From the IMG/VR virus record IMGVR_UViG_3300033144_003633, positions 1 to 32,752 of that record: a DNA stretch of 32,752 nucleotides, one strand, 5' to 3'. How positions within the stretch are numbered: the stretch's first letter is position 1; each line of letters begins with the position of its first letter. A model generated the notes under the pieces. It was not told the origin of the DNA. It did no database searches and worked only from the letters and a program-made list of their open reading frames with translations. This DNA comes from a virus. Of the stretch, positions 1 through 32,291 are shown one piece after another. A program made the translations under genes and the position numbers.

Positions 1-101
1 ATGGGTTGGCTCCCAAAAGAAACATACTTACAATAGAGAGAGATTTGAGGTCCCTCCCTAACTGGCAATCCAGTGTAGGCACTTTTCATCATAACCGTCA
101 T
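1..101 (-). CDS. Partial small leftward ORF, unknown
   Basis: An open frame without stops runs leftward from ATG at 99-101 (in-frame ATGs also at 90-92 and 87-89) and leaves the window at position 1 after 33 codons. It starts MTVMMKSAYTGLPVREG and resembles nothing I recognise. It would continue the series of small leftward genes. With only 33 codons visible the open frame could be chance. Confidence 0.3.
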   Translation of the reverse strand, partial: MTVMMKSAYTGLPVREGPQISLYCKYVSFGSQP

Positions 102-603
102 TAGTCTTGCTCTTGTTTTTACATTTGTTGTAGTAATGTAAATTACTAGTTTTAAATGAGACTCTTACTCCAGGTAGTGCTAATGAGAAGGTTCCGTTCC
201 TTTTGAGAACAAAATACCTCACTACCCAGTATAGATTACTAGTCTATGTTGTTTTCAGATACTGTTACCGCACCTGTCACAATGATTAAAACATTATAGG
301 GTTAGTGACCCTAATTGCATTTTAACCTGTAGATTTTCCTGTTGTGGTTTCCCACTCAATACCAGAGTCTACCTGGCATTATCTCTCAAGGATTACCCCA
401 TTGAAATAGTATTCTACTCGCTTACATAGATTGGTATAAATACCAACGCTCTCCCCAAAGGATTACTTTTCTCTGTTACCAGAGTTATCTTAATGACCAT
501 AAGCAGCCATTTACACAAAATTTGGTGACCAGTCAAGCTGGTTTTATCCCTATTACCGTGAGTATTTCAACTCTAAAGGTAATTGTGTATTAATAGGGTT
601 AGG

Positions 604-630
604 TAAAGGAGGACATAATATCCTCCTTTA
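604..630 (-). promoter_or_regulatory. Hairpin pairing an SD-like sequence with its complement
   Basis: A perfect 10-bp stem (604-613 with 621-630) has a 7-nt loop. Read leftward it carries AAAGGAGGA, a textbook Shine-Dalgarno, on one arm, an ATG in the loop and TCCTCCTTT on the other arm. The ATG opens only a 5-codon frame. No U-run follows on either strand, so it is not a classical terminator. The function is unknown. Confidence 0.35.
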
Positions 631-750
631 AAATCGTGCATCTGCAAGCGTCTGACCGTATGTTTACTACAACATCTCTTACACTCTTACATCACAGTAT
701 ACTATGAAGCAAGAGATGAGGTTTTCGCTAGTTCCGCTGAATTTCCTCTC

Positions 751-789
751 TTACAATAGTCCTATGTAGTAAAAATAGGACTATTGTAA
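751..789 (-). terminator. Long 3' hairpin of the 234-aa gene
   Basis: A perfect 15-bp inverted repeat (751-765 and 775-789, 9-nt loop) starts 18 nt past the stop of the leftward gene at 807-1511. No U-tract follows on the minus strand, so it may be a processing or stabilising hairpin, or a terminator of a non-canonical kind. Confidence 0.5.
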
Positions 790-806
790 TATGAAAGGCA
801 GTACTA

Positions 807-1511
807 CTATTCTTGCAACTCTGGAGTTTTTTCTGGTAATAACTCCCAACAAAATCCACAAATAGAAGTGGTATCGTCTATATATTCAGAATTTTTAGAT
901 TGTCTTACCCACACTCCTGTACCTGTGTCTGATAACTCCATATCAAACTCAGTAAGTATATTCCTTTGTTGCTCATACAGGTCTTTCATTGTTACTGGCC
1001 CTTGAATTTCCTCGGGACTTGCCTCTGTTGCACTCAACCACGATTCTACAGAACATCTACCCTCTTTTACAAAAAATTTCCTAAGAGCTATCCCTAGATA
1101 AGCATCTTTTTGCTGTTCCACTGGTAAAGTCGTTCTTCTGTATTCTCCTCCCTTGCCATCATAATTAACATCTGTTGGCAGTACATCATTTGGATACCAA
1201 TACATACCAGAACTTTCATACATATACTCAAATACAACTGGCTCTGTGTTCATAGCCTCATAAGATTTGAATTTACAAATCATCTTTCCAACAACATATT
1301 GAGCATTTCTAACTATATGATTACTAGTATGTGGATTAGATATTGCATATTCTGGAAGCTCTGGTATCTCTAATATTCCTAATAAAGCTTGAGTAGCAAG
1401 TTCCGGATTTGAATGAGATTTCACAATCATCATTAAATTTTCTACATTTTCTTTGCCGTATTTACTTTCAAGAGCCACGGCAATAATGGGCTCTACATTT
1501 TCTGGATTCAT
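807..1511 (-). CDS. Hypothetical 234-aa acidic protein with C-terminal CxxC
   Basis: I do not recognise this protein. It is soluble-looking, with no signal peptide or membrane segment, and its first ~60 residues are helical and leucine-rich. The middle is Tyr/Trp-rich (YESSGMYWYPND around residue 98-109), and the C-terminus carries a single CGFCWE motif that could bind a metal only with a partner. The ATG at 1509-1511 follows an AT-only leader, as for other leftward genes here. It is separated from the upstream lipoprotein gene by a hairpin at 1552-1577 and ends before a 15-bp hairpin, so it may be a single-gene transcript. The function is not inferred. Confidence 0.7.
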   Translation of the reverse strand: MNPENVEPIIAVALESKYGKENVENLMMIVKSHSNPELATQALLGILEIPELPEYAISNPHTSNHIVRNAQYVVGKMICKFKSYEAMNTEPVVFEYMYESSGMYWYPNDVLPTDVNYDGKGGEYRRTTLPVEQQKDAYLGIALRKFFVKEGRCSVESWLSATEASPEEIQGPVTMKDLYEQQRNILTEFDMELSDTGTGVWVRQSKNSEYIDDTTSICGFCWELLPEKTPELQE

Positions 1512-1551
1512 AATTATCAGTTTAATTAATTTAATTTAATTGATTAAAAGA

Positions 1552-1577
1552 ACATAGAACTCATAAGAGTCCTATGT
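1552..1577 (-). terminator. Intrinsic terminator, leftward operon
   Basis: An 11-bp stem with one mismatch (1552-1562 and 1567-1577) has a 4-nt loop. Read leftward it is followed by TTCTTTTAATC. It lies in the gap between the lipoprotein gene (1619-1867) and the 234-aa gene (807-1511), where the transcript starting near 3,300 would be expected to end. Confidence 0.55.
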
Positions 1578-1618
1578 CCTGGGTGCGTTTTCTGTTACGA
1601 GGTCTTTGTGCACCAACC

Positions 1619-1867
1619 CTATCTAACCAAATGGTCAGAAATATTGTAAATATAGGTACTACCTAATGTACTATCTATCCTACCCTCTTGAATATCCCAC
1701 TCTATCCATTCTACCATATCCTCCATTGTATTCTTTGTTTCTCTACAATTAGAGAAATAACAAGAAGTTTCAGATGTAGAAATACAGGAAGTTAGGAATA
1801 CTACCATAGCAACTAGTACAAGAAAATAACACACTACTATCTGGATTACAGAAGCTCTTGTTCTCAT
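1619..1867 (-). CDS. Small lipoprotein, 82 aa
   Basis: The N-terminus is a type II signal peptide: basic start (MRTR), a hydrophobic core at about residues 7-25 and a lipobox LTSC with the lipidated cysteine at residue 28. The mature part is short and acidic, with Cys at about 36 and 41. The start ATG overlaps the stop of the upstream 52-aa gene by 4 nt (ATGA), which suggests translational coupling. A phage-encoded lipoprotein expressed with small host-takeover genes could modify the cell envelope, for example in superinfection exclusion. That role is a guess from location and lipidation only. Confidence 0.65.
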   Translation of the reverse strand: MRTRASVIQIVVCYFLVLVAMVVFLTSCISTSETSCYFSNCRETKNTMEDMVEWIEWDIQEGRIDSTLGSTYIYNISDHLVR

Positions 1868-2022
1868 AGTGTCATCTCTTTTAGCTCCTCTAACCTATCA
1901 GTAGCTTGTTTATCATTCTTGAACATTAGGGTTTTAGTAGAATGACTTTTACGATTTAAATGTTTCTCAATCTTTCTAATCTTTCTACCCAGACCTATTT
2001 TTGTAAACTTTGTTTGTCTCAT
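1864..2022 (-). CDS. Basic 52-aa protein
   Basis: This short gene was read from the minus strand: ATG at 2020-2022, stop at 1864-1866. The product begins MRQTKFTKIGLGRKIRKIEK, is rich in Lys/Arg and predicted helical. It sits 15 nt after the two-CxxC gene and overlaps the next start by 4 nt, the packing expected of a real operon gene. A nucleic-acid-binding role would fit its charge, but no family is recognised. Confidence 0.6.
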   Translation of the reverse strand: MRQTKFTKIGLGRKIRKIEKHLNRKSHSTKTLMFKNDKQATDRLEELKEMTL

Positions 2023-2037
2023 ATTTTAAAAGTTTAA

Positions 2038-2211
2038 TTAGTTAAGGTTAATGTTAAATTTAGGATTTTCAGAATCCTTTTTAATTTTCTTGAGAGAACA
2101 GTCAAGACACATAAGCTCTTTTATACTACGCTGTTCTTGTACCATTTTATTGGCTCTATATTCAATAGCATTAAGTTGTTCTCCACAAGTATCACATACA
2201 GGATGTTCCAT
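2038..2211 (-). CDS. 57-aa protein with two CxxC pairs (zinc-ribbon-like)
   Basis: The ATG is at 2209-2211 and the stop at 2038-2040. Cysteines at residues 6, 9, 35 and 38 form two CxxC pairs 25 residues apart, the spacing of a treble-clef or zinc-ribbon knuckle. The sequence begins MEHPVCDTCGEQLNAIEYRA. Small phage zinc-ribbon proteins often bind nucleic acid or host enzymes, but which applies here cannot be said. It lies between the 85-aa gene (32-nt gap) and the 52-aa gene (15-nt gap) in the leftward operon. Confidence 0.65.
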   Translation of the reverse strand: MEHPVCDTCGEQLNAIEYRANKMVQEQRSIKELMCLDCSLKKIKKDSENPKFNINLN

Positions 2212-2243
2212 AATAAGTTATCAGTTAAGGCGGAGAGAGAGGA

Positions 2244-2501
2244 TTATTTACCTCTCTTTCCTTTGTTAATGTTTGACAGTCCTAATTCTCTATTAAGCCG
2301 TCGGTTTTCTTTAGAAGCTAACCTCTTTGGTGATACAAACAGTTTAGATATTACCATATGTACATTAGTATCCCAAAATCCATAACTATGATAGAGATGA
2401 AATTTACGATTCTTATGTAATTTGATAATATGACCTGCTCGTTCATAAAGATGTTGAGAGATATCTCTCATAGCCATATGTTCTGCTGAAATTGTTCCCA
2501 T
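2244..2501 (-). CDS. Hypothetical basic 85-aa protein
   Basis: A leftward ORF with ATG at 2499-2501 and TAA at 2244-2246. The product is basic and His/Lys/Arg-rich, with a central aromatic stretch (HLYHSYGFWDTNVHMV at about residues 35-50) and a strongly basic C-terminus ending in KGKRGK. No membrane segment is seen. It lies 30 nt after the 42-aa gene in the same direction. The composition suggests nucleic-acid binding, but I recognise no family. Confidence 0.6.
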   Translation of the reverse strand: MGTISAEHMAMRDISQHLYERAGHIIKLHKNRKFHLYHSYGFWDTNVHMVISKLFVSPKRLASKENRRLNRELGLSNINKGKRGK

Positions 2502-2531
2502 CGTATTTGTTTTTGATGTTAAAGATTCAGG

Positions 2532-2660
2532 TTAATAAAGAGGTATGACTAAATGGGTAGGTGTTCGGGTTTTATCCCTATTATTCCTAATTACGTGAAG
2601 TACCGCACTAAGACCGCAGTCTTGATGAACAGTAGATTCACAACCATTTGTCCGTACCAT
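2532..2660 (-). CDS. 42-aa protein, unknown
   Basis: This short gene was read directly from the minus strand: ATG at 2658-2660, stop at 2532-2534. The product begins MVRTNGCESTVHQDCGLSAV and is soluble-looking with two cysteines. Its start lies 9 nt past the stop of the 191-aa gene, so the two are probably co-transcribed. A small inverted repeat (2610-2614 with 2619-2623) lies inside it. Operon position is the main support. Confidence 0.5.
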   Translation of the reverse strand: MVRTNGCESTVHQDCGLSAVLHVIRNNRDKTRTPTHLVIPLY

Positions 2661-2669
2661 AAGTTAAAA

Positions 2670-3245
2670 TTAAAATGGAAAATCCATTTCCTCAAGTGGT
2701 TTAGCACTTAAGACATCATAAATAGTTTCCTTGGTGCTTTTTGTCAAGGGTTCACTATTTTTAGCAGGAGGCTTACACTCTTGAATTACTTTGTAAGCTT
2801 GTTGTCTTGCCTCCGTTGCTAATTTAATAACAAGTCCCTCGGGAAGAGGTTCCTCACTATTACGCAGTTCATACCCAAATTTAGATTCATATCTATCTCT
2901 TGGGTATTTTGCCTCTCTTACAAAACCCTTGAAAGAATACTGTACAAAATGTGCAGTATCATAGTGGAAATCTTTCGCTGTAGATTTTGCCTTGTTAACA
3001 ATTTGCTCCTTGTAATAGTACTTATTCCACTCTATGTACAAGTAGTTATCATCCCCTCTTGCTGGTAATTCCTCTGTTTTATAAATGAAATCAGTATGTA
3101 AACTGATAGTAGGAAGTGCCTTTTCTGCAATTAGTTTGCAAGCAGGGTTATTTGAAAAGTATTTAGGTAATTTGATTTTGAAACTGGTCTGATTTAATTG
3201 GAAAGTAGGCTGACCAAGACCTACTCCTTTAACATAATGTCTCAT
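2670..3245 (-). CDS. 191-aa protein with SSB-like acidic C-terminal tip
   Basis: First gene of the leftward operon, with ATG at 3243-3245 about 60 nt from the promoter at 3308-3339. The protein is a basic/aromatic mixture with no signal peptide. Its last residues, LEEMDFPF, closely resemble the acidic-aromatic tip of bacterial single-stranded-DNA-binding proteins (known consensus ending DDDIPF) that recruits repair and replication enzymes. The body does not show an obvious SSB sequence, so this is either a divergent phage ssDNA-binding protein or one that copies the tip to contact host SSB partners. The tip is seen directly; the role is inference. Confidence 0.65.
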   Translation of the reverse strand: MRHYVKGVGLGQPTFQLNQTSFKIKLPKYFSNNPACKLIAEKALPTISLHTDFIYKTEELPARGDDNYLYIEWNKYYYKEQIVNKAKSTAKDFHYDTAHFVQYSFKGFVREAKYPRDRYESKFGYELRNSEEPLPEGLVIKLATEARQQAYKVIQECKPPAKNSEPLTKSTKETIYDVLSAKPLEEMDFPF

Positions 3246-3307
3246 AATATGTAGTTTTAGGTGTTAATTACTATCAGTTGGTTACTACCTCTTTTAGCTA
3301 TATATTA

Positions 3308-3339
3308 CAAATATAGGATAAAAAGGTAATGTTGGAAAA
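3308..3339 (-). promoter_or_regulatory. Bacteroidota-type promoter for the leftward operon
   Basis: Read leftward, TATATTTG (3315 to 3308) is an exact match to the known Bacteroidota -7 box TAnnTTTG. Twenty nt upstream lies TTTT (3339 to 3336), close to the -33 box TTTG. It lies 63 nt upstream of the 191-aa gene start. The sequence between the boxes (AACATTACCTT) resembles part of the repeated leftward motif found further right. Confidence 0.6.
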
Positions 3340-3453
3340 TAATGGTGTAAGTAGGGTGGGTTTGTTAGGACACAAGGAAGTTCCCAAAGGTGATTTAGAA
3401 AAGGGATTTAAATACCTATCTACGGAAACTACTCTAACTACCTCAACTACTTG

Positions 3454-3500
3454 TACTACCCATAGCCCCCCTCCAGAGAGGAGAGGAAGCTGTGGTAGTA
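3454..3500 (-). terminator. TACTACC/GGTAGTA hairpin after the 138-aa gene
   Basis: A 7-bp inverted repeat (3454-3460 with 3494-3500) encloses a smaller CTCC/GGAG pair. It lies 14 nt past the stop of the leftward gene at 3515. It shares the CTACC/GGTAG stem with the hairpins at 4393-4429 and 4867-4897. No U-run follows, so the terminator role is inferred from position. Confidence 0.4.
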
Positions 3501-3514
3501 AATTGGAGTTCTAA

Positions 3515-3931
3515 CTACTCTGCTGGTTTATCAGAGTAGAAGAGTGCCACTTTGGACTGTGCTATGAGGTCAAGCTGTGCTTTGCTCAAGCCTTTTGCAG
3601 TATGGAACTCCAGTTTTTTAACATCAAAACTTTGCACCTGATTGCCGTTAGCATCCGTGTAGTTATTGGGTGCTATGGTCAAGGTAGCATCTGCAACGCC
3701 ACTAATAAATTCAGGGGCATTTTTGATGTTATCTGCAAAGGTGTAATAAGTTTCCCCAGTACCCTGCAGGATAAAAGCTCTACGAACAGTCTTTTTTCCC
3801 GCTTTGGAAGTATATTCCTTCGGTTCTCCCAAATGGGAAACTTTTACACTTGCAGTCGTGTATTCATTTTTTTCGTCGTGGGCACGTCCAGTACCCTCCA
3901 ACATTGACAATATGTTCTTTGTTTCAGTCAT
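3515..3931 (-). CDS. Hypothetical 138-aa protein, possibly OB-fold-like
   Basis: A leftward ORF with ATG at 3929-3931. After ~25 polar residues comes a run of alternating beta-type segments (SVKVSHLGEP, KKTVRRAFILQGTG, ATLTIAPNNYTD, QSFDVKKLEFHTAKG), then a C-terminal helix. The pattern of five or so strands in about 90 residues would suit an OB-fold or similar small barrel, as in phage ssDNA-binding proteins, but no signature is decisive. A copy of the repeated promoter-like motif lies 56 nt upstream (3987-4009) with a 10-bp hairpin between, and a hairpin follows the stop. Function unknown. Confidence 0.65.
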   Translation of the reverse strand: MTETKNILSMLEGTGRAHDEKNEYTTASVKVSHLGEPKEYTSKAGKKTVRRAFILQGTGETYYTFADNIKNAPEFISGVADATLTIAPNNYTDANGNQVQSFDVKKLEFHTAKGLSKAQLDLIAQSKVALFYSDKPAE

Positions 3932-3965
3932 ATCAGTTGTTTTAAATTAGAAAAAAATTAATTAA

Positions 3966-3987
3966 GCGATAGTATTTATACTATCGC
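3966..3987 (-). terminator. 10-bp hairpin between motif and the 138-aa gene
   Basis: A perfect inverted repeat (3966-3975 with 3978-3987, effectively a 9-bp stem with a 4-nt loop) is followed leftward by TTAATTAATTTTTTTC. It has the form of an intrinsic terminator but lies between the motif copy and the next gene, so it could end a transcript from further right or act as a leader attenuator. Confidence 0.45.
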
Positions 3988-4009
3988 AAGATTTAATGAA
4001 GGTCCGTTA
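3987..4009 (-). promoter_or_regulatory. Leftward repeat motif, copy 1 (of 7)
   Basis: Minus-strand sequence TAACGGACCTTCATTAAAT followed by CTTG. It matches the family core ACCTTCATTA and lies upstream of the 138-aa gene. It is probably a phage-specific promoter or operator; see findings. Confidence 0.55.
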
Positions 4010-4091
4010 TGGGGGCAATCCCTTTTCTTTTCTCCTTCCTTCTTTCTTTTCCCAAACCCTTCTTTTTCTTTTTCCTTTTATCATTTTTCAT
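3993..4091 (-). CDS. Possible 32-aa Lys/Arg-rich peptide in a polypurine tract
   Basis: Read leftward, ATG at 4089-4091 opens a 32-codon frame that ends at a TAA inside motif copy 1. About half the residues are Lys or Arg (MKNDKRKKKKKGLGKERRKE for the first 20). The coding strand is almost pure purine over 4019-4078. A low-complexity tract can give such a frame by chance, so this is a weak call. If real, it would be a nucleic-acid-binding peptide. Confidence 0.25.
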   Translation of the reverse strand: MKNDKRKKKKKGLGKERRKEKRKGIAPITDLH

Positions 4092-4166
4092 TTACTCAAT
4101 GTGAATGAAAAATGAATAGGAAACCCCCGTTTTCCTTTTTGCGTTTATAGGGATGCTCCCCCATAA
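4007..4166. repeat. Inverted repeat flanking a polypyrimidine tract
   Basis: The left arm 4007-4022 (TTATGGGGGCAATCCC) and right arm 4150-4166 (GGGATGCTCCCCCATAA) are complementary apart from a small bulge. They enclose ~127 nt that is almost all pyrimidine on the plus strand over 4019-4078. The same TTATGGGGG string recurs at 4363-4371 right after motif copy 2. This may be a structured leftward RNA. Confidence 0.45.
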
Positions 4167-4195
4167 AAAAACGTCAGAAAGGATTTTGCCAAATC

Positions 4196-4327
4196 CTAGG
4201 GCATTAACGTTCTTTTTACACAAAAAAGAATACGGCTGGTAGATAAAAGACCTGAAACCTTTAACATTTGTGTTAATGGCAGAGCGTAAAATCTCCCGTA
4301 GGAAATCAATACTCTTTCAGGTGCCAT
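4196..4327 (-). CDS. Possible 43-aa protein
   Basis: ATG at 4325-4327 opens a 43-codon leftward frame ending at 4196-4198, 14 nt downstream of motif copy 2, a layout like neighbouring units. The product begins MAPERVLISYGRFYALPLTQ and is not recognisable. The stretch also contains four small hairpins (4180-4197, 4210-4230, 4261-4276, 4328-4343), so it may equally be a structured non-coding RNA. Confidence 0.3.
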   Translation of the reverse strand: MAPERVLISYGRFYALPLTQMLKVSGLLSTSRILFCVKRTLMP

Positions 4328-4340
4328 TGGACCTATTGGT

Positions 4341-4365
4341 CCATAATTTAATGAAGGTTATGTTA
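4341..4365 (-). promoter_or_regulatory. Leftward repeat motif, copy 2
   Basis: Minus-strand TAACATAACCTTCATTAAAT followed by TATGG, sharing the family core. No strong ORF follows within 250 nt (only the weak 4196-4327 frame), so it may drive an RNA. Confidence 0.55.
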
Positions 4366-4392
4366 TGGGGGAGGAAATTCTTAAATCAATCT

Positions 4393-4429
4393 TAGTATGT
4401 CCCATACTACCCCCTTAATTAGGAGGTAG
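4393..4429 (-). terminator. Tandem hairpin after the 121-aa gene
   Basis: Two overlapping stems lie just past the stop at 4446: TAGTATG/CATACTA (4393-4399 with 4403-4409) and CTACCCCCT/AGGAGGTAG (4407-4415 with 4421-4429, one mismatch). The same arrangement recurs at 4867-4897. It is probably a 3'-end element of leftward transcripts. Confidence 0.5.
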
Positions 4430-4445
4430 CAGGGCATTACTTATA

Positions 4446-4811
4446 TCACGTCTTACCATCTTTATGCATAGCTTCACATAACTCATCTAACTCATTTCCA
4501 TCCCTATCACATTGTGTATTTACATTCCCATACTCAATAATAGCATCAACGGTTTTGTGAAAAGCACTTTCATCGTCAAGAAGCTTTATATACTTTTCCA
4601 TATTATTTCCTACTTGGGTTCTATCCGCAATATAAAAAGCAGTCAATTTGTTAACAAAATTCTTGACGATGTCTTCTATACCTGCCCCTGCAAGATTATG
4701 TGCTAATCGTTGTAAGGTAACAAGGTCAATGATAGCTGTTTCCCTATCTTCAGGAATATCTTTTACAAGATTGATGGGTTCCTGTACTCCATTTTCATTT
4801 ATATTGTCCAT
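4446..4811 (-). CDS. Hypothetical 121-aa acidic helical protein
   Basis: A leftward ORF with ATG at 4809-4811, 26 nt from motif copy 3. The product is acidic and mostly helical, without membrane segments. Residues ~25-65 look like a pair of amphipathic helices (TAIIDLVTLQRLAHNLAGAG then DIVKNFVNKLTAFYI). The C-terminal third contains two cysteines in polar sequence. The leader (AACCCTTTAAATTAATAATT before the ATG) resembles those of the 60-aa and 84-aa genes. No family is recognised. Confidence 0.65.
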   Translation of the reverse strand: MDNINENGVQEPINLVKDIPEDRETAIIDLVTLQRLAHNLAGAGIEDIVKNFVNKLTAFYIADRTQVGNNMEKYIKLLDDESAFHKTVDAIIEYGNVNTQCDRDGNELDELCEAMHKDGKT

Positions 4812-4837
4812 AATTATTAATTTAAAGGGTTAATATT

Positions 4838-4862
4838 CCAAACCTAATGAAGGTTAATGTTA
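4838..4862 (-). promoter_or_regulatory. Leftward repeat motif, copy 3
   Basis: Minus-strand TAACATTAACCTTCATTAGG followed by TTTGG. Here the right end, TAGGTTTG, is an exact Bacteroidota -7 box (TAnnTTTG). It lies directly upstream of the 121-aa gene. Confidence 0.6.
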
Positions 4863-4866
4863 TTAG

Positions 4867-4897
4867 AGTATGTACCATACTACCCCTGCAGAGGTAG
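4867..4897 (-). terminator. Tandem hairpin, second copy
   Basis: AGTATG/CATACT (4867-4872 with 4876-4881) overlaps CTACC/GGTAG (4880-4884 with 4893-4897). It is similar in sequence and order to 4393-4429 and lies between the leftward 60-aa gene and motif copy 3, where a transcript end is expected. Confidence 0.5.
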
Positions 4898-4976
4898 CAA
4901 GGTACAAACCCTTACTTTTAAAACCCAACCGCTGTCAACTGGAAGGGAGTCAATTAGTTTAAAAGTTTTGAATGCT

Positions 4977-5159
4977 TTATGGTTTAGAGTAACGGATTAC
5001 TATAAACCAGAAGACTATTGCCATAATAGTAACTATGCCTATTACTGGAAATACTGGATTAGTTCCAAAGATGGTTAAGTACAGTTCTACTGTAATAGAG
5101 ACCGTTATACATAATCCAATTACACTAAGAATTAGTTTAAAAACAAATGAATCTCTCAT
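4977..5159 (-). CDS. 60-aa membrane protein, two TM segments
   Basis: The frame is open back to an ATG at 5214-5216 (79 aa). I prefer the ATG at 5157-5159, because the sequence before it (AACCCTTTAATATTACTAATT) matches the leaders of the 121-aa and 84-aa genes. From that start the protein begins MRDSFVFKLILSVIG. It has two hydrophobic segments at about residues 7-30 and 35-56, joined by a short TNP-containing turn, and ends in basic RYSKP. This suits a small inner-membrane protein. Motif copy 4 lies upstream. The role may be in host-envelope takeover or superinfection immunity, by analogy only. Confidence 0.6.
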   Translation of the reverse strand: MRDSFVFKLILSVIGLCITVSITVELYLTIFGTNPVFPVIGIVTIMAIVFWFIVIRYSKP

Positions 5160-5282
5160 AATTAGTAATATTAAAGGGTTATATTCATAATGGTAAAAAA
5201 TAACAAAAGGATGCATATTTCAGCAGAGTTTCCCATCACGGCAGGCTCCTCCCCAGAATTAACTGTTAATGTTATTTAATTA

Positions 5283-5306
5283 CCAATTATTAATGATGGT
5301 CTGTTA
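5283..5306 (-). promoter_or_regulatory. Leftward repeat motif, copy 4
   Basis: Minus-strand TAACAGACCATCATTAATAA followed by TTGG. It lies upstream of the 60-aa membrane-protein gene. A small CTGTT/AACAG stem sits at its upstream edge (5301-5313). Confidence 0.6.
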
Positions 5307-5326
5307 AAAACAGATTGAGGTTAGGT

Positions 5327-5363
5327 ACCTAACTCCCTTAATAGTTCATTAAGGGAGATAGGT
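5327..5363 (-). terminator. 16-bp hairpin ending the 52-aa gene
   Basis: The stem 5327-5342 with 5348-5363 has one mismatch and a 5-nt loop. It overlaps the stop codon (5338-5340) of the leftward 52-aa gene and lies just before motif copy 4. It is a strong structure, but no U-run follows. Confidence 0.55.
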
Positions 5364-5496
5364 AGAAGTTAAGATATATTGCATAGCTCATTACTGCTAT
5401 GTAATATATTATAACTAGGGTTATAAAAATGTTATTTGTGAATAATGCCCAAAAGGCTTTAAAACTATGATAGGATATTTTTTCTAGTATATTCAT
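5338..5496 (-). CDS. 52-aa single-TM protein
   Basis: Read from the minus strand: ATG at 5494-5496, TAA at 5338-5340. The product begins MNILEKISYHSFKAFWALFT. It continues with a hydrophobic, aromatic segment at about residues 22-46 that would span the membrane, and ends in LSPLMNY. Motif copy 5 lies 29 nt upstream and a 16-bp hairpin covers the stop, so promoter, gene and terminator form a complete single-gene unit. A second stem with one G-T pair (5374-5387 with 5396-5409) lies inside the coding sequence. No family is recognised. Confidence 0.6.
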   Translation of the reverse strand: MNILEKISYHSFKAFWALFTNNIFITLVIIYYIAVMSYAIYLNFYLSPLMNY

Positions 5497-5524
5497 AATT
5501 GATAAAAATAAGTTTGGTTTATAT

Positions 5525-5547
5525 CCAATATTAGTGAAGGTCTGTTA
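5525..5547 (-). promoter_or_regulatory. Leftward repeat motif, copy 5
   Basis: Minus-strand TAACAGACCTTCACTAATA followed by TTGG. One core base differs (CACTA for CATTA). It lies 29 nt upstream of the 52-aa membrane-protein gene. Confidence 0.6.
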
Positions 5548-5568
5548 AAAACAGAAAGAAGAAGAAGA

Positions 5569-5823
5569 TTATTCATCTTCTTCTTCTGGAAAGACTAATT
5601 CCCATTCAGCATTGGTAAAGCCTGTTTTAAGGATTTCCCGCTGTTCCTGAGTAAGGTAAGGAAATGCATCTTGGATTAGTTGTTTCCCGCCTGCCCAGTT
5701 AAGATAGTCCTGGATTTGTACCTCAAAAGCATGTAGCTTACTGGTAACTTGGCATGTTCTTCTTACCATAACAGTAAGCTTAGCATGTATTAGTTGGATA
5801 TCTTCTCTTTTAATTGATTCCAT
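5569..5823 (-). CDS. Hypothetical 84-aa protein
   Basis: A leftward ORF with ATG at 5821-5823 behind an AT-rich leader containing AACCCTTAAA. The product is helical, with a basic N-terminal half and a very acidic tail (FPEEEDE). The segment YLTQEQREILKTGFTNAEWE (about residues 57-76) recalls a short motif of many small phage proteins of unknown function, in which an acidic C-terminus follows a helix-turn pair. Motif copy 6 lies 140 nt upstream with a terminator-like hairpin (5856-5884) in between, so expression may be attenuated. No biochemical role can be given. Confidence 0.65.
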   Translation of the reverse strand: MESIKREDIQLIHAKLTVMVRRTCQVTSKLHAFEVQIQDYLNWAGGKQLIQDAFPYLTQEQREILKTGFTNAEWELVFPEEEDE

Positions 5824-5855
5824 GATTTAATTGTTTAAGGGTTATAATAAAGAAA

Positions 5856-5884
5856 AGAGAACATAGCTACTAGCTATGCTCTCT
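5856..5884 (-). terminator. Hairpin with U-rich tail, possible attenuator
   Basis: A 13-bp stem with one mismatch (5856-5868 with 5872-5884) and a 3-nt loop is followed leftward by TTTCTTTATT, the form of an intrinsic terminator. It lies in the leader between motif copy 6 and the 84-aa gene. A 16-codon frame (5870-5920) ends within the hairpin. Confidence 0.55.
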
Positions 5885-6143
5885 TTGCCCATAGTGACGG
5901 GACTTACATAATAAATGCATTGCGTTACAATATAGTTCAGTTACTATACTGATGCTAGCATTCCAATTATTAATGAAGGTTTGTTTCATATAATCCTTTA
6001 ATTCCCGTAGGCTAATGGGACACTCAAAGAGTGGATTACGAAGCCTGCAGTAGCTATAGCAATGCCTTAGCATTCAGCGTGGTTAGTGCCTACTTAAGTA
6101 TGCCCTGCAAATCTTTGTTGTTAATGTTAATACCAATGAGTAC
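5885..6143. other. Non-coding stretch around motif copy 6
   Basis: Apart from motif copy 6 (5963-5986) and a 16-codon leader-like frame (5870-5920), I see no credible gene. A 67-codon minus frame (5870-6073) runs straight through the motif. A small perfect hairpin CACTC/GAGTG lies at 6021-6033 inside a weaker AGGCT/AGCCT stem, perhaps the end of the 45-aa gene's transcript. Confidence 0.4.
5963..5986 (-). promoter_or_regulatory. Leftward repeat motif, copy 6
   Basis: Minus-strand AAACAAACCTTCATTAATAA followed by TTGG. It is followed leftward by a short leader, the hairpin at 5856-5884 and the 84-aa gene. Confidence 0.6.
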
Positions 6144-6281
6144 TTAGTTGTAGAGGATTGTATCCTTCCCCATAGTGGGACATATCACAGCTACTAGTAC
6201 ACCATCATAGTGCAGTAGCTGGGGCTCCCTGTCGCCTATCTCATTGACACTAACATTAATAATAACAACAGCATTGGACAT
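6144..6281 (-). CDS. 45-aa protein, unknown
   Basis: Read from the minus strand: ATG at 6279-6281, TAA at 6144-6146. The product begins MSNAVVIINVSVNEIGDREP and ends GKDTILYN. It looks like a small globular beta-type protein rather than a membrane protein. Motif copy 7 lies 55 nt upstream. The start codon lies at the inner edge of a long stem-loop (6263-6320), so translation could depend on its opening. The similar unit layout in neighbours supports it. Confidence 0.5.
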   Translation of the reverse strand: MSNAVVIINVSVNEIGDREPQLLHYDGVLVAVICPTMGKDTILYN

Positions 6282-6320
6282 TTGCAGTCATTTTGCCACA
6301 GGCTCCAATCGCTGTTGTTA
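6263..6320 (-). promoter_or_regulatory. Long stem-loop over the start of the 45-aa gene
   Basis: The arms 6263-6278 and 6304-6320 pair as 10 bp (TAACAACAGC/GCTGTTGTTA) plus 6 bp (ATTGGA/TCCAAT), with a single bulged base at 6310 and a 25-nt loop. The ATG of the 45-aa gene (6279-6281) lies next to the stem. No U-run follows, so it is more likely a translational or RNA-stability element than a terminator. Confidence 0.5.
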
Positions 6321-6335
6321 AAGCAATTCACATTG

Positions 6336-6359
6336 CCAAACATTAATGATGGTTTGTTA
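6336..6359 (-). promoter_or_regulatory. Leftward repeat motif, copy 7
   Basis: Minus-strand TAACAAACCATCATTAATGT followed by TTGG, the rightmost copy. It lies upstream of the 45-aa gene and its stem-loop. Confidence 0.6.
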
Positions 6360-6466
6360 TATTAGCGTTAGATTTACCGGGGGGATGTTCCCCATTCACA
6401 CTGCAGGGGTGGGTATTGCATTGGGCCTCCTCCCTCACGACATCTCAAAAAAATTTTATAAAAAAT

Positions 6467-6574
6467 TTAAAGGACAGATAGGACCAGGAAAAGAATAATG
6501 ATTATGGAAGCTATAAGAGAGTAGTGATCATTGTTGTTGTTATTTCCGCCTCCTATGTATATTTTATCTTCCAT
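6467..6574 (-). CDS. 35-aa single-TM protein
   Basis: Read from the minus strand: ATG at 6572-6574, TAA at 6467-6469. The product begins MEDKIYIGGGNNNNNDHYSL, a polar head with a run of five Asn, followed by a clean hydrophobic tail (IASIIIILFLVLSVL) that ends the protein. This is a tail-anchored topology. The contrast between head and tail is unlikely by chance. AT-only sequence with two T-runs follows the stop and may terminate transcription. It is the rightmost leftward gene and has no copy of the repeated motif, so its promoter should lie within 6575-6780. Confidence 0.6.
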   Translation of the reverse strand: MEDKIYIGGGNNNNNDHYSLIASIIIILFLVLSVL

Positions 6575-6612
6575 TAAATGCTAAAGAAAAGGTTTGCCTC
6601 TTTTTAAAACAC

Positions 6613-6649
6613 CATTCCCTAAGAAAAGGCTAGTACCTATTAGGGAGTG
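6613..6649. other. 10-bp hairpin in the divergent gap
   Basis: CATTCCCTAA (6613-6622) pairs with TTAGGGAGTG (6640-6649) with one G-T pair and an 18-nt loop. It lies in the 207-nt gap between the leftward 35-aa gene and the rightward late genes. It may be an operator or an RNA leader structure. No U-run follows on the plus strand. Confidence 0.35.
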
Positions 6650-6730
6650 AGTTAGTGATAAAAGCTATAGGTTTTACGCAAAGTTACTAAAAAAAACTGA
6701 GATTGTCAAGTGTTTTTAGAAAAAAAATGA

Positions 6731-6738
6731 TACTTTTG
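6731..6738 (+). promoter_or_regulatory. Candidate late promoter (-7 box TACTTTTG)
   Basis: TACTTTTG is an exact match to the Bacteroidota -7 box TAnnTTTG, 43 nt before the first rightward gene. No well-placed -33 TTTG is seen (GATTG at 6701-6705 is too far and TTTTT at 6713-6717 too close), so a phage factor may help. Confidence 0.5.
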
Positions 6739-6781: not shown

Positions 6782-7108
6782 ATGCCCATAGTCGGAACAA
6801 ATAAAGAGTTACTAAGAGAAATTGGTAATAATGTAAATAATCCTTCTACTGTAGTTAATGGGAAGACAACTATTGCTACTGCCGGAAATGAAGCTATTAT
6901 AGGAGAAGGGAGTTTAAAAATAGGAGTAACTGTGAAGGCCCTTTCTACTAATACTAATGTGGTTTTTATAGGTACCAGCGGAGTTAGTTCTACTGATGGA
7001 TTTCAATTAGCAGCTGGGGAACAGATATTTATTCCAGCAGGGAATTTAAATAGAGTATACCTGGATGTTACAACTAACGGAGAAGGTGTTACTTATATAG
7101 GAAACTAA
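6782..7108 (+). CDS. Small virion-type beta protein, 108 aa
   Basis: First gene of the rightward late region. After a short polar N-terminus the sequence is Gly/Thr/Val-rich with alternating strands (GSLKIGVTVKALSTNTNVVF, then GFQLAAGEQIFIPAGNLNRV). This is the look of small phage decoration or adaptor domains with a jelly-roll or beta-sandwich fold. It resembles in style the 129-aa protein at 27093-27482. It lies 14 nt before the LamG-like gene, so they may function together on the virion surface. The identity of the fold is inferred. Confidence 0.6.
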   Translation: MPIVGTNKELLREIGNNVNNPSTVVNGKTTIATAGNEAIIGEGSLKIGVTVKALSTNTNVVFIGTSGVSSTDGFQLAAGEQIFIPAGNLNRVYLDVTTNGEGVTYIGN

Positions 7109-7122
7109 TACACTTAACAAGT

Positions 7123-8622
7123 ATGGGCCATATTAGAACAAATAGAGCACTAGAAGCCTATATAAAAAGTTATGCTACAGGTATTCCAGGTCCTGTACCT
7201 GGGGGAGATGCCTTTCCTAATACCTACTCACTTGATTTTGACGGAGTGAATGAAAGTTTGAACTGTGGGAATAATTTTTCATTCACAGATGAGATTACTG
7301 TATCTGCTTGGATTAAGGTGAATACTTGGGTAAATTATGAAACTTTTGTCAGTCAGATTAATACTGCTGGTAGCTTTTTATTGAATCAGGATGTGGCAAC
7401 TACTCCCGGTTCTTTATATTTTGCTATTTATCAGAGTGATGGATCTTGGAAACAGATTATAAATTTGGGTGCTGCCCCTGTATCTGATTGGTTTCATTTT
7501 GTTGGAGTGGCAGATGGTAGTTTTATAAGGATGTATGTGAATGGTGTATCTGTTGGAACACCCGTAGCTTATGATGGTACTATCAGGACAAGTACAGACG
7601 AGGTGTGGATAGGGGGTAGGGCAAATGGTACTTTTATGGCTGACTGCCTAATTGATGAGGTAGCTATATGGAACGGAACAGGGTTATCAGCAGCACAAGT
7701 TACTGACCTGTATCATTCTGGTTCGCCCACAGATTTGAGCAGTTTTGAAGTGGCTCCTGAAGTATGGTACAGAATGGGAGATAGCACCAAAGCATTATAT
7801 TTCAATAGTATCTGGCAGATTCCTAATGAGATGAAAGTAGGGAATTTTAGTAATTACAGTTTTTCATTTGATGGAGTAGATGAAAGGGTACAGGTTGGAG
7901 CAGCGAATACATCATTAGGCATAAGTGGAGCTATTACTATTTCCTTCTGGTGCAAGATGCCATCAGGCAGCACCACCATTGGACCAGTACCAATCTGTGA
8001 GGATGAGGGAACGGAGCCTAAGAGAAATTGGAACTTTATTTGTGTTTATAATTCGTTGATATTTCAGATATGGAATGCTGATGGAACCTCAAAAAATTGC
8101 ACCTCACCATCAGATTCACAGATTCAAGACGGGGAATGGCATCACGTTATGGGCACCTATGATGGTACATCAGATACTGATGGCATAAAACTATACATTG
8201 ATGGTGGCACTCCTGTAGCAACTGCTACAGCAGATAGCACAGGACTAAGGACATCAGCAATGAATCCGTTCATTGGAGCATCAGGAGGTGGCACCCCTGC
8301 CGGAACAGTTTATAATTGGGAAGGCGAGATTGATGATGTGGCTATATTTGATGCAGATAAGTCAGGAAGTATAGCAACTATTTATAATTCAGGAGTACCC
8401 ACAGATTTAAGTGCCGATTCAGACCTTGTTGCATATTTTTTAATGGGAGAAGGTGCAACCTTTTCAACTAATTGGACTATTCCAGATGATAGTTCAAACT
8501 CCAATAATGGCACAAGTGCAAATATGGCTATTGACGATAGGACAACAGATGCCCCAAGTAATGAAAATCAAGGTGATTCAATTAATATGGGGGAGGATTC
8601 GAGGGTGGAGGACACCCCATAA
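7123..8622 (+). CDS. Double LamG/concanavalin-like lectin protein
   Basis: A 499-aa protein with two repeats of a LamG/ConA-like jelly-roll. Repeat 1 spans about residues 35-225 (SLDFDGVNESLNCG, WFHFVGVADGSFIRMYVNG, LIDEVAIWNGTGLSAAQVTD). Repeat 2 spans about 245-460 (FSFDGVDERVQVG, EWHHVMGTYDG, IKLYIDGGTPVAT, EIDDVAIFDADKS). Each ends with the same 'YhSGxPTDLS' unit and a YxMG motif. Such domains bind carbohydrate or protein ligands, and in phages they occur in surface fibres and decoration proteins. There is no signal peptide. The last ~40 residues are acidic and polar. It probably recognises or loosely binds host surface glycans. Confidence 0.75.
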   Translation: MGHIRTNRALEAYIKSYATGIPGPVPGGDAFPNTYSLDFDGVNESLNCGNNFSFTDEITVSAWIKVNTWVNYETFVSQINTAGSFLLNQDVATTPGSLYFAIYQSDGSWKQIINLGAAPVSDWFHFVGVADGSFIRMYVNGVSVGTPVAYDGTIRTSTDEVWIGGRANGTFMADCLIDEVAIWNGTGLSAAQVTDLYHSGSPTDLSSFEVAPEVWYRMGDSTKALYFNSIWQIPNEMKVGNFSNYSFSFDGVDERVQVGAANTSLGISGAITISFWCKMPSGSTTIGPVPICEDEGTEPKRNWNFICVYNSLIFQIWNADGTSKNCTSPSDSQIQDGEWHHVMGTYDGTSDTDGIKLYIDGGTPVATATADSTGLRTSAMNPFIGASGGGTPAGTVYNWEGEIDDVAIFDADKSGSIATIYNSGVPTDLSADSDLVAYFLMGEGATFSTNWTIPDDSSNSNNGTSANMAIDDRTTDAPSNENQGDSINMGEDSRVEDTP

Positions 8623-24980: not shown

Positions 24981-25511
24981 ATGGCAAATAAAGAACTACT
25001 CTGTACAGATAACTATACTCTGCCTAAGGGAGATAAAGGTCCTAAAGGCCTAATAGGAAATACTGGAGCACAAGGTCCTGCAGGCCCAGGTATTCAAGGT
25101 CCAACAGGTCCTGCTGGAGGTAATAAAATTGATATTAACTTGCAAAGTTCTTCTTTTCCCTATATAGAAATTTCTAATACTAGTCATGAAGACCTTGCTT
25201 ATTTTATTTTCCCAGGTACTGCAACATTTACTCCAAAGACTTGGAGAATAGGATTTAGTATGCTATCTAAATCTCAAGTAAATACTGTAGAGGTAGAACT
25301 TGGTTATATAAAGAAAAATGGTACCAAAGAGATTGTAGCTAGTTTTAGTAAAGATTTACAATCCGTATCTTCTACATATATAGTAGAAGAAATAACTACC
25401 TTTTCAAATCTACCTGCAGATGCTAAAATATTTTATATTAGTGCTTCTACAGCATTAGCCCCAGTAACTAATGCTTCAACTAGATTTTACGCTACAGAAA
25501 TAAGAGAATAA
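24981..25511 (+). CDS. Collagen-like fibre protein, 176 aa
   Basis: The N-terminal anchor (ELLCTDNYTLPKGDKGPKG) runs into a short Gly-X-Y collagen-like stretch (about residues 16-47). It then has a beta-sandwich of ~125 residues (AYFIFPGTATFTPKTWRIGF). The N-terminal CTDN anchor and the C-terminal domain both resemble the next protein, so these are tandem paralogues. Such proteins form thin trimeric virion fibres. It overlaps the next gene by 1 nt. Confidence 0.7.
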   Translation: MANKELLCTDNYTLPKGDKGPKGLIGNTGAQGPAGPGIQGPTGPAGGNKIDINLQSSSFPYIEISNTSHEDLAYFIFPGTATFTPKTWRIGFSMLSKSQVNTVEVELGYIKKNGTKEIVASFSKDLQSVSSTYIVEEITTFSNLPADAKIFYISASTALAPVTNASTRFYATEIRE

Positions 25512-26635
25512 TGGGAGAAGTTTATACCTGTACAGATAACGCAAAAAGCATTTCTAATGATACTATTGGAATGGCGGGAGATCAGGGATTTACAGGTCCT
25601 AATGGACCTACTGGTAATCCTTGGGCTGTAGGAATTGTTCATCCTAGTACCCTTACCTCTTTTGTAGGTAAGAATTATGTATTAAATTCTGCAGATGTAC
25701 CTTTTCCAAGTACAGGTAATGTACTACAGACCGGAGATAGATACTTAAATTCTCTTACAGGGGAATGGTTTATATATTCCTCCACTCTAGGCAATTGGGT
25801 AGCTCAATCTACAAATTTAAAAGGAAACCAAGGCCCTCCTAATTATGCAGTTACTGAAGTTTCTTTTACTAAAAATATAGCTACCGGATGGACTGTATCC
25901 ACTGTTTATGATAAACAATTGGTAGGACACGTGATTTGGCCAGGTTCTAATGTAGCCGGGGCTATAAGCTCTGTGAAAGTGGCACTGAGTACTAATACGC
26001 AAACTGCTAGTACTGATGTAATACTACATCTAGTAAATTTAGGACCTGCCATTGGGGATATAGATGATATAGTAGTAGCTGCAAAAACAGAAACAGTTTC
26101 TGGAGATGGTAGCCTTGGCTCTATGCAGATAGTAGATTTAAATATAATACCTGCCAATGTACCTGCAAATCCTGAAATGTTTGGATTATTTGTTACTCTT
26201 AGTATGACAGGACCTCATGAAAGGCAGATATTAGAACAATTAACTAGTCAGTATAGCGGGGAAATAGCTGTTAATTATAAGCAGAATATTCTAAAATCAA
26301 AAGAAGACACTAGAAACTCATTTTACAATGTACTTTCTAAACACGGTTTAATAAGTAGAAATGAATTTCCAGAAGAAAGAAATAAAAGAATTCAAGAAGA
26401 AAGAGAAGCACAATCTAAAACTGATAGTAAGACTCAAGCAGATGTAGATAAATTTTCTGAAGATTCTTCTACAGTAAGTGGGGCTAAAAATTATAACTCT
26501 TTTGACCCTTCTCCTAAAGGAGGAAGAGGAAGTCAAGGGGATGGCAAAGGGGACGGACCTCCAGGATATGATCCTACAGACCCTGGAACAGGATTTAATC
26601 CTGCCGTAAATATTCATCATTTAAGTATAAGATAA
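25511..26635 (+). CDS. Collagen-like fibre protein, 374 aa, paralogue of previous
   Basis: It starts MGEVYTCTDNAKSISNDTIG with a short Gly-X-Y patch (GDQGFTGPNGPTG). An inserted region of about 70 residues (residues 38-110; GDRYLNSLTGEWFIYSSTLG) resembles a short fibre motif common in phages. Then comes a beta-sandwich homologous in pattern to the 176-aa protein (VIWPGSNVAGAISSVKVALS). It ends in a charged coiled coil and a Gly/Asp/Pro-rich tail. It probably forms a virion fibre together with its neighbour. The tail ends NIHHLSIR. Confidence 0.65.
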   Translation: MGEVYTCTDNAKSISNDTIGMAGDQGFTGPNGPTGNPWAVGIVHPSTLTSFVGKNYVLNSADVPFPSTGNVLQTGDRYLNSLTGEWFIYSSTLGNWVAQSTNLKGNQGPPNYAVTEVSFTKNIATGWTVSTVYDKQLVGHVIWPGSNVAGAISSVKVALSTNTQTASTDVILHLVNLGPAIGDIDDIVVAAKTETVSGDGSLGSMQIVDLNIIPANVPANPEMFGLFVTLSMTGPHERQILEQLTSQYSGEIAVNYKQNILKSKEDTRNSFYNVLSKHGLISRNEFPEERNKRIQEEREAQSKTDSKTQADVDKFSEDSSTVSGAKNYNSFDPSPKGGRGSQGDGKGDGPPGYDPTDPGTGFNPAVNIHHLSIR

Positions 26636-31308: not shown

Positions 31309-31818
31309 ATGACTAAAAGAGGCCCAAGAGCAATAAAAGTAGATTACAAAAGGAAAGATATCTACAGATACTTTGTAAAAAACAATAGTTCTTTAAAAAT
31401 AACTAGTTCCCAGCATGGGAAAATTTTAAATATGTTTAATAAGGAAGTATCAAATCTTATTTTAACTAAAGCATTTGAATTTTTAATTCCTGCCCGATTA
31501 GGAGGATTAAGGATTCTTAAGTATAAACCTTCTATCAAAATACGAGAAGATGGGAGCTTAGATACTTCTAATTTAAGTGTAGACTGGAAAAAGACTAATG
31601 AACTATGGGAATCAGACTCTAGTTCTAAAGAGCAAAAGAAACTTATATACTTTACTAATGAGCATAGTGAGGGATATCAATATAAATGGTATTTCACTAA
31701 TTATAGGTCTAATTGTATAAATAAAAGTGCTTATTGTTTCAGACCTAGTAGGAGTAATAAAAGAAAATTAGCAGAATTAATTAAAAATAAAGATTTTACC
31801 GGAGATTATTATATGTGA
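31309..31818 (+). CDS. crAss-like conserved 169-aa protein
   Basis: The ATG at 31309 is chosen because the upstream in-frame ATG (31222) lies inside the previous gene and would add 29 residues without matching the family. The sequence LIPARLGGLRILKYKPSIKI, SVDWKKTNELWE, then YQYKWYFTNYRS and KRKLAELIKNK match a protein conserved in crAss-like phages next to the preceding gene. In known members it is a small basic protein of unconfirmed role, possibly a capsid or tail-assembly component. Its stop overlaps the next start (TGATG). Confidence 0.75.
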   Translation: MTKRGPRAIKVDYKRKDIYRYFVKNNSSLKITSSQHGKILNMFNKEVSNLILTKAFEFLIPARLGGLRILKYKPSIKIREDGSLDTSNLSVDWKKTNELWESDSSSKEQKKLIYFTNEHSEGYQYKWYFTNYRSNCINKSAYCFRPSRSNKRKLAELIKNKDFTGDYYM

Positions 31819-32291
31819 TGGCATACACTACATCTGAAATAAAAACCATACATCAAAAAGCTTCTGCTATTCCAAATAGAGAGTATACTACTTTGGATGG
31901 AGCTTTATATATAGGATTACCTAATGGTAGATTATCCCGCAGGGATATTGCGGTAACAAGCCTACAAAGGGATGTAGAAACTTTATCTTCAACTAAAGGA
32001 GCAACAGGTGCTACTGGTGCTACAGGAGAAAAGGGAGATACAGGAGCAACTGGTCCACAGGGGGAACCTGGAGTTGAAACTTTAAGTACCGGAAATAAGT
32101 ATAAAATAAGTTCTACAGATAGTATTACAATAGAAGATTCTAAAGAATACTATGTCCACAGAAATTTTGAATTGCTTAATGATTCAACATTTACTATAAA
32201 TTTGGAAGGACAATTGTGTATAGGAGATGGTATTTTAAGACTAGGATCTAATTCAACTTTAGTAAATAACGGAGAAATAATATTAACATGA
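31818..32291 (+). CDS. Collagen-like fibre protein, 157 aa
   Basis: A GTG three bases earlier is in frame. I choose the ATG at 31818, which overlaps the previous stop by 1 nt. The N-terminal ~55 residues are an anchor of helix and turn. Residues ~62-86 are Gly-X-Y repeats (GATGATGATGEKGDTGATG), followed by a small beta domain to the end. It probably forms a trimeric virion fibre or spike. It overlaps the next fibre gene by 4 nt (ATGA). Confidence 0.7.
   Translation: MAYTTSEIKTIHQKASAIPNREYTTLDGALYIGLPNGRLSRRDIAVTSLQRDVETLSSTKGATGATGATGEKGDTGATGPQGEPGVETLSTGNKYKISSTDSITIEDSKEYYVHRNFELLNDSTFTINLEGQLCIGDGILRLGSNSTLVNNGEIILT

Follow-up and report, generated by a model that had tools for sequence, protein, structure and literature searches.

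Small genes, a repeated box and a GOLLD RNA match in the presumed early arm of a crAss-like phage

The first 6,580 positions of a linear virus record of 32,752 bases (IMG/VR record IMGVR_UViG_3300033144_003633; the whole stretch is referred to as the window) constitute the start of the leftward, non-structural arm of what its genes identify as a crAss-like phage. We consider it fairly probable that this arm is an early region that is headed by a host-type promoter, is divided into units with a repeated sequence box at the head of each, and carries a set of small genes together with a GOLLD RNA. A first-pass annotation had put forward seven leftward open reading frames (ORFs) of 35-60 codons as real genes. 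All seven are present, and gap-by-gap tests provided good support for four (1864-2022, 2038-2211, 4977-5159 and 5338-5496), moderate support for two (2532-2660 and 6467-6574) and none for 6144-6281. The small genes are new and partly supported. Coordinates are collected in Table 1.

Identity and layout of the window

The window is a fragment in which both arms are incomplete and, judged by its gene content, it is part of a crAss-like phage (Crassvirales), with the Steigviridae nearest. The major capsid protein (MCP), the portal protein and TerL of the rightward arm match phrog_11589, phrog_6547 and phrog_6681, each with an E-value of 1e-115 or better. These crAss-type proteins share one neighbourhood and their closest named matches are Crassvirales: the MCP shares 42% identity with its counterpart in Cellulophaga phage phi14:2, and TerL is around 45% identical to the TerL of Steigviridae such as cr85_1 and cr111_1. 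The hallmarks of the Crassvirales include a giant virion RNA polymerase and a genome near 100 kb. Metagenomic relatives were found whose TerL is 52-84% identical, and those that span the divergent junction are L009, L011 and L012 only. The arms are opposed, the leftward, non-structural arm covering 1-6574 and the rightward, structural arm starting at 6782. The same divergent layout, with small genes heading the non-structural arm, is found in crAss001, cr85_1 and phi14:2.

This position suggests that the leftward arm is probably the early region. In crAss001 the genes at the corresponding place are early genes that are switched on within 10 min of infection (PMC8375218), and a similar operon in phi14:2 was reported to be read by the virion RNA polymerase (PMC10136315). 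In a member of the Crassvirales, small genes are therefore to be expected in this position. The run of short hypothetical genes in crAss001 (about gp96-gp104; Steigviridae) lies on the same side of the junction, opposite the structural arm, includes a CcmD-family protein of 33 residues and is expressed first in infection. The two differ in that a tRNA array marks the junction of crAss001, whereas the window has no tRNA genes; no TROVE-domain protein was seen in the window. The two proteins used as queries, 2038-2211 and 3515-3931, showed no similarity in crAss001. The early arm of phi14:2 (Akihdevirus), an aquatic relative, resembles that of the window in layout, but its TerL match is just 33% across 60% of the length, and no small proteins were found in common. 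The content of the arm is not conserved, as L009 shares only 2244-2501 and 4446-4811 with the window.

Promoter, leader and repeated box

Leftward transcription would start at the divergent junction, from a promoter at 6709-6679 that has a conserved leader behind it. We take this promoter to be of the Bacteroidetes, i.e. host, type. L009, L011 and L012 match the intergenic DNA 6577-6722 at 71-75% identity. Moreover, GTAACTTTGCG is invariant in all four genomes; TTGACA is shared by the window, L011 and L012, but has changed in L009. A hairpin is predicted in the leader, with weak covariation (two pairs), and a scan with the leader pattern yielded L012 and L009 as the only true relatives.

The box AACANACCWTCATTAATNNTTGG has five matches on the leftward strand at up to three mismatches, where 0.02 are expected. 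Its core, ACCWTCATTA, is present in six exact copies, all on the leftward strand between 3994 and 6353, against an expectation of 0.26 for the whole window. Counting the variant copy at 5524-5546 there are seven boxes, one heading each unit and none elsewhere in the window. Five are followed on their 3' side by the genes 3515-3931, 4446-4811, 4977-5159, 5338-5496 and 5569-5823, and two by intervals that lack a good gene (approximately 4010-4340 and 5990-6330). The organization in separate units with their own signals, as claimed in the first-pass annotation, was borne out by the presence of one conserved box per unit and of strong hairpins past the stops of 807-1511, 4446-4811, 5338-5496 and 5569-5823. 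Two hairpin sequences of 20 nucleotides past the stops of neighbouring units (4394-4413 and 4867-4886) are 95% identical, which suggests that they are copied terminators. A scan with the box also returned 14 contigs, which were dismissed as chance hits since nearly all had a single match and were unrelated to the window.

Most likely, the box is a promoter or activator site that is specific to this phage. The arm from 6358 to 3515 is split into seven units: three with ordinary genes (5569-5823, 4446-4811 and 3515-3931), two with small membrane proteins (5338-5496 and 4977-5159) and two that most likely specify structured RNAs, several of the units being closed by a hairpin. The box would let short transcripts start independently, with the virion RNA polymerase as one candidate reader. 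Further to the left a run of small genes (encoding two-CxxC, basic and lipoprotein-like products) precedes the GOLLD RNA. To our knowledge, the promoter used by the virion RNA polymerase of crAss-like phages has not been defined. The more specific proposal that the box is such a promoter, in units of a single gene or a single RNA, and that the arm makes two unclassified structured RNAs in addition to GOLLD, is one that we consider unlikely.

Are the small ORFs genes?

The number of small ORFs does not exceed chance, as under a dinucleotide null the arm is expected to contain 6.3 ATG ORFs on the leftward strand with 35 residues or more, and 1.9 with 50 or more. It could thus be argued that most of them are chance frames between real genes, and that the arm consists mainly of a few ordinary genes and structured non-coding RNAs. 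Codon usage also fails to set five of the seven apart from chance; it backs 1864-2022 and 2038-2211 and is neutral for the others. The power of the codon test is low, however, because 2244-2501, which has a homologue, scores near zero as well. In addition, three intervals of the arm fold far better than shuffles and coding-sequence controls, and 6144-6281 sits in a hairpin.

The tests of individual ORFs nevertheless speak against chance for most of them. Each gap was shuffled 2000 times and the frequency of an ORF as long as the observed one was recorded; the resulting p values are somewhat optimistic because the gaps were picked after the ORFs had been seen. Chance was rejected for 1864-2022, 2038-2211 and 5338-5496, and moderately so for 2532-2660 and 4977-5159. 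The ATGA overlap noted earlier is indeed present, between 1864-2022 and the next gene, 1619-1867. Likewise, the three products described as small membrane proteins (4977-5159, 5338-5496 and 6467-6574) are strongly hydrophobic, to an extent that is absent or nearly so among 1212 null ORFs. The hydropathy of 4977-5159 was reached by 0/1212 null ORFs, and its length and hydropathy jointly by 0/2000 gap shuffles. Moreover, it has the wording of its start, AACCCTTTAA...TAATTATG, in common with the conserved gene 4446-4811. The hydropathy of 6467-6574 (2.51) was found in 0/1212 null ORFs as well and its gap value drops to 0.001 when hydrophobicity is also demanded; no matching ORF lies behind the leader in L009 or L011. 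The two CxxC pairs ascribed to one product are those of 2038-2211 (CDTC and CLDC), a combination seen in 0/2000 gap shuffles and absent from the 1212 null ORFs. Taken over the whole set, we judge the explanation by chance frames improbable.

The exception is 6144-6281, whose GC-rich start context differs from that of its neighbours. It is better read as a structured RNA than as a gene, because it is located between the arms of a 26-nucleotide inverted repeat that forms a long stem (6115-6140/6240-6265), within an interval that folds with a z-score of -4.4. The ORF 5870-6073 was dismissed as a gene, as it contains a box and has a codon p of 0.95.

Three small genes that had not been listed, 1619-1867, 2244-2501 and 5569-5823, are at least as well supported as the seven; the hydropathy of 1619-1867, 2.99, occurs in 0/1212 null ORFs.

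The seven products are, as the first reading had it, unlike known families: no Pfam match reached its cut-off and the PHROG matches were weak. This bears on the suggestion of an anti-defence or host-takeover island, in which small membrane proteins and zinc-ribbon-like proteins would act against host defences. Such roles are plausible from position, i.e. from the early location by analogy, and two further points agree with them: small membrane and CxxC proteins are present, and relatives carry other genes in the corresponding position. A match of 2038-2211 to the Lar restriction-alleviation family (PF14354) would fit as well, but it scores 13.7 bits against a cut-off of 28.6 (E 0.074) and is one among several weak zinc-finger matches. 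For the zinc-ribbon profile, Pfam DZR, the E-value of 2038-2211 is 0.052, under the cut-off. Thus, with no above-cut-off family match for any of the seven, an anti-defence island is a tentative proposal, though one compatible with the organization of the arm that we favour. By position and composition, the membrane, lipoprotein-like (1619-1867) and two-CxxC products fit early proteins that may act on the host envelope or machinery.

GOLLD and other structured RNAs

The left end of the window matches the 3' domain of the GOLLD RNA (Rfam RF02032) and is cut by the end of the contig. The first-pass annotation had missed both this RNA and the large non-coding share of the block. In cmscan the match has E-values of 5.5e-20 and 6.4e-21 and covers positions 1-246 of the 416 of the model, truncated at the 3' side; its score of 79.8 bits is below the gathering score of 150, which was set for the whole model. 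In common with GOLLD it has the 3' domain with the UCAAAAG loop, is phage-borne and is accompanied by a long folded 5' region (PMC12286853). It differs in that the contig stops before the last 170 model positions and no tRNA is nearby. The anatomy of GOLLD (PMC12286853) was the basis to assign 230-745 as the predicted 5' region, and the strong fold of 745-230 on the leftward strand alone is as expected for such a region. The complete segment 1-745 folds with a z-score of -6.3 on the minus strand. No close kin of the GOLLD segment was found by scan or by blastn against named phages, and a text search of the literature, which was not exhaustive, yielded no link between GOLLD and crAss-like phages. 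An exact repeat of 16 nucleotides, GGTTTTATCCCTATTA, occurs at 540-555, in the presumed 5' region, and at 2568-2583, inside ORF 2532-2660.

The two gene-poor units, at approximately 4010-4340 and 5990-6330, are candidate structured RNA units on the basis of their predicted folding. Two coding sequences that served as controls had z-scores of -1.8 and -2.2. Terminator-like hairpins contribute part of the fold z-scores, and for 3945-4440 the fold is strong on either strand. In L012 the ORF-poor segment 1-760 also has a strong fold on the leftward strand (z -3.9) and matches no Rfam family; it could be another large RNA.

Weighing the organization of the arm

Several results weigh against the organization proposed here. 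A model in which only the virion polymerase acts does not fit easily with the host-type promoter that heads the arm. Between a box and the start codon that follows it lie variable distances, from about 33 to 147 nucleotides. A repeat of this kind was not conspicuous in phi14:2, crAss001, cr85_1 or L009, and the box core was not present in L009, L011 or L012. For none of the seven small frames was a homologue found in the loci of the relatives, nor for 2038-2211 and 4977-5159 in named phages or for 4977-5159 in viral contigs. Finally, the genome search missed the GOLLD RNA of the window itself, probably because the RNA is truncated, though cmscan found it. The same search did not find GOLLD in the crAss relatives or in phi14:2, crAss001 and cr85_1, a result that says little, since the search had no positive control and missed the window copy.

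As the box was not found in relatives, it may be a binding site or an RNA signal and not a promoter. Were it an RNA element or the operator of a regulator, the whole arm could be read from the single promoter at 6679-6709. The conservation of that promoter in four genomes agrees with this, as do the restriction of the box to the window phage and its variable distance to the starts. However, the strong hairpins past 5338-5496 and 5569-5823 would stop one long transcript ahead of the following unit in the absence of antitermination, and the box recurs directly past these very hairpins, once per unit. We regard this alternative as possible but doubtful, and prefer a box that serves as promoter or activator site for separate units.

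Other genes and side observations

The 63 C-terminal residues of 5569-5823 match phrog_20898; by tblastn, proteins of this type occur in unrelated phages of Xanthomonas, Acinetobacter, Roseobacter and Gordonia, and no Crassvirales record is among the matches listed. The structure model of 3515-3931 has low confidence (predicted local distance difference test, pLDDT, 57) and was too poor for a structure search. Scans of viral contigs with 3515-3931, 2670-3245, 807-1511 and 4977-5159 found no relatives, tblastn of 2670-3245, 2038-2211, 4977-5159 and 4446-4811 against named phages gave no match, and a genome scan with the alignment of 4446-4811 returned none.

A protein of 440 residues that is encoded in the same arm of L009 (94-1416, minus strand) contains a domain resembling PcfJ (PF14284, E 3.6e-8). 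In the rightward arm of the window, collagen-like Gly-X-Y stretches are present in three proteins (24981-25511, 25511-26635 and 31815-32291). Adjacent to the junction, the rightward gene 7123-8622 encodes a large protein with two similar halves, which match phrog_347 and phrog_3545 and look like two LamG-type domains.

Table 1. Features of the leftward arm and the divergent junction, in order of position.
Feature	Position	Strand	Evidence
GOLLD RNA 3' domain, cut by contig end	1-229	-	Rfam RF02032, 79.8 bits
Predicted variable 5' region of GOLLD	230-745	-	ORF-poor; fold z -5.6 minus, -1.6 plus
Terminator-like hairpin past 807-1511	751-789	-	15-nucleotide perfect inverted repeat; fold
Gene, 234 residues	807-1511	-	Length; codon score +38.8
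Small gene, 82 residues, lipoprotein-like	1619-1867	-	Hydrophobic N-terminus, then LTSC; codon p 0.026
Basic protein, 52 residues	1864-2022	-	Gap 0/2000 (<0.0005); codon p 0.044; ATGA overlap
Two-CxxC protein, 57 residues, zinc-ribbon-like	2038-2211	-	Gap 0.0025; codon p 0.023
Gene, 85 residues, homologue in L009	2244-2501	-	tblastn E 1.6e-5; alignment
ORF, 42 residues, moderate support	2532-2660	-	Gap 0.0105; codon p 0.35
Gene, 191 residues	2670-3245	-	Length; codon score +25.1
Gene, 138 residues, predicted beta-rich, 3' of box 3986-4008	3515-3931	-	Length
Strongly folded interval	3945-4440	-	Fold z -6.9 minus, -5.3 plus; no Rfam match
Box, unit 7	3986-4008	-	Box and core matches
Box core ACCTTCATTA, unit 6	4349-4358	-	Core match
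Gene, 121 residues, homologue in L009	4446-4811	-	tblastn E 3.2e-10; 32% identity
Box core, unit 5	4845-4854	-	Core match
Protein, 60 residues, two predicted membrane segments	4977-5159	-	Gap 0.023; hydropathy 2.75
Box, unit 4	5283-5305	-	Box and core matches
Terminator-like hairpin of 5338-5496	5326-5364	-	Inverted repeat; fold
Membrane protein, 52 residues	5338-5496	-	Gap 0.006; hydropathy null 0.006
Box, unit 3, three mismatches	5524-5546	-	Box match
Terminator-like hairpin spanning stop of 5569-5823	5557-5593	-	Fold
Gene, 84 residues, family phrog_20898	5569-5823	-	E 1.4e-11
Folded interval including ORF 6144-6281	5860-6440	-	Fold z -4.4; no Rfam match
Box, unit 2	5963-5985	-	Box and core matches
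ORF, 45 residues, unsupported as gene	6144-6281	-	Gap 0.19; codon p 0.47
Box, unit 1	6336-6358	-	Box and core matches
ORF, 35 residues, hydrophobic C-terminus, first past leader, moderate support	6467-6574	-	Gap 0.18
Conserved leader of leftward transcript	6577-6678	-	71-75% DNA identity in L009, L011, L012
Leftward promoter, presumably Bacteroidetes-type	6679-6709	-	TTGACA, 17 nucleotides, TAACTTTG
Rightward -7-like TACTTTTG preceding gene 6782-7108	6731-6738	+	Read from sequence

Implications

The arm is ordinary in kind, with interesting details, of which the box and GOLLD are most worth following. The functions of crAss-like early genes are mostly not known, and for the small proteins the outcome is a shorter and better ranked list. 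With respect to the promoter of the virion polymerase, a box that is repeated once per unit provides a concrete sequence that can be tested in vitro. The presence of GOLLD in a crAss-like phage, if true, would make a further group of phages available for studying the role of this RNA cage.

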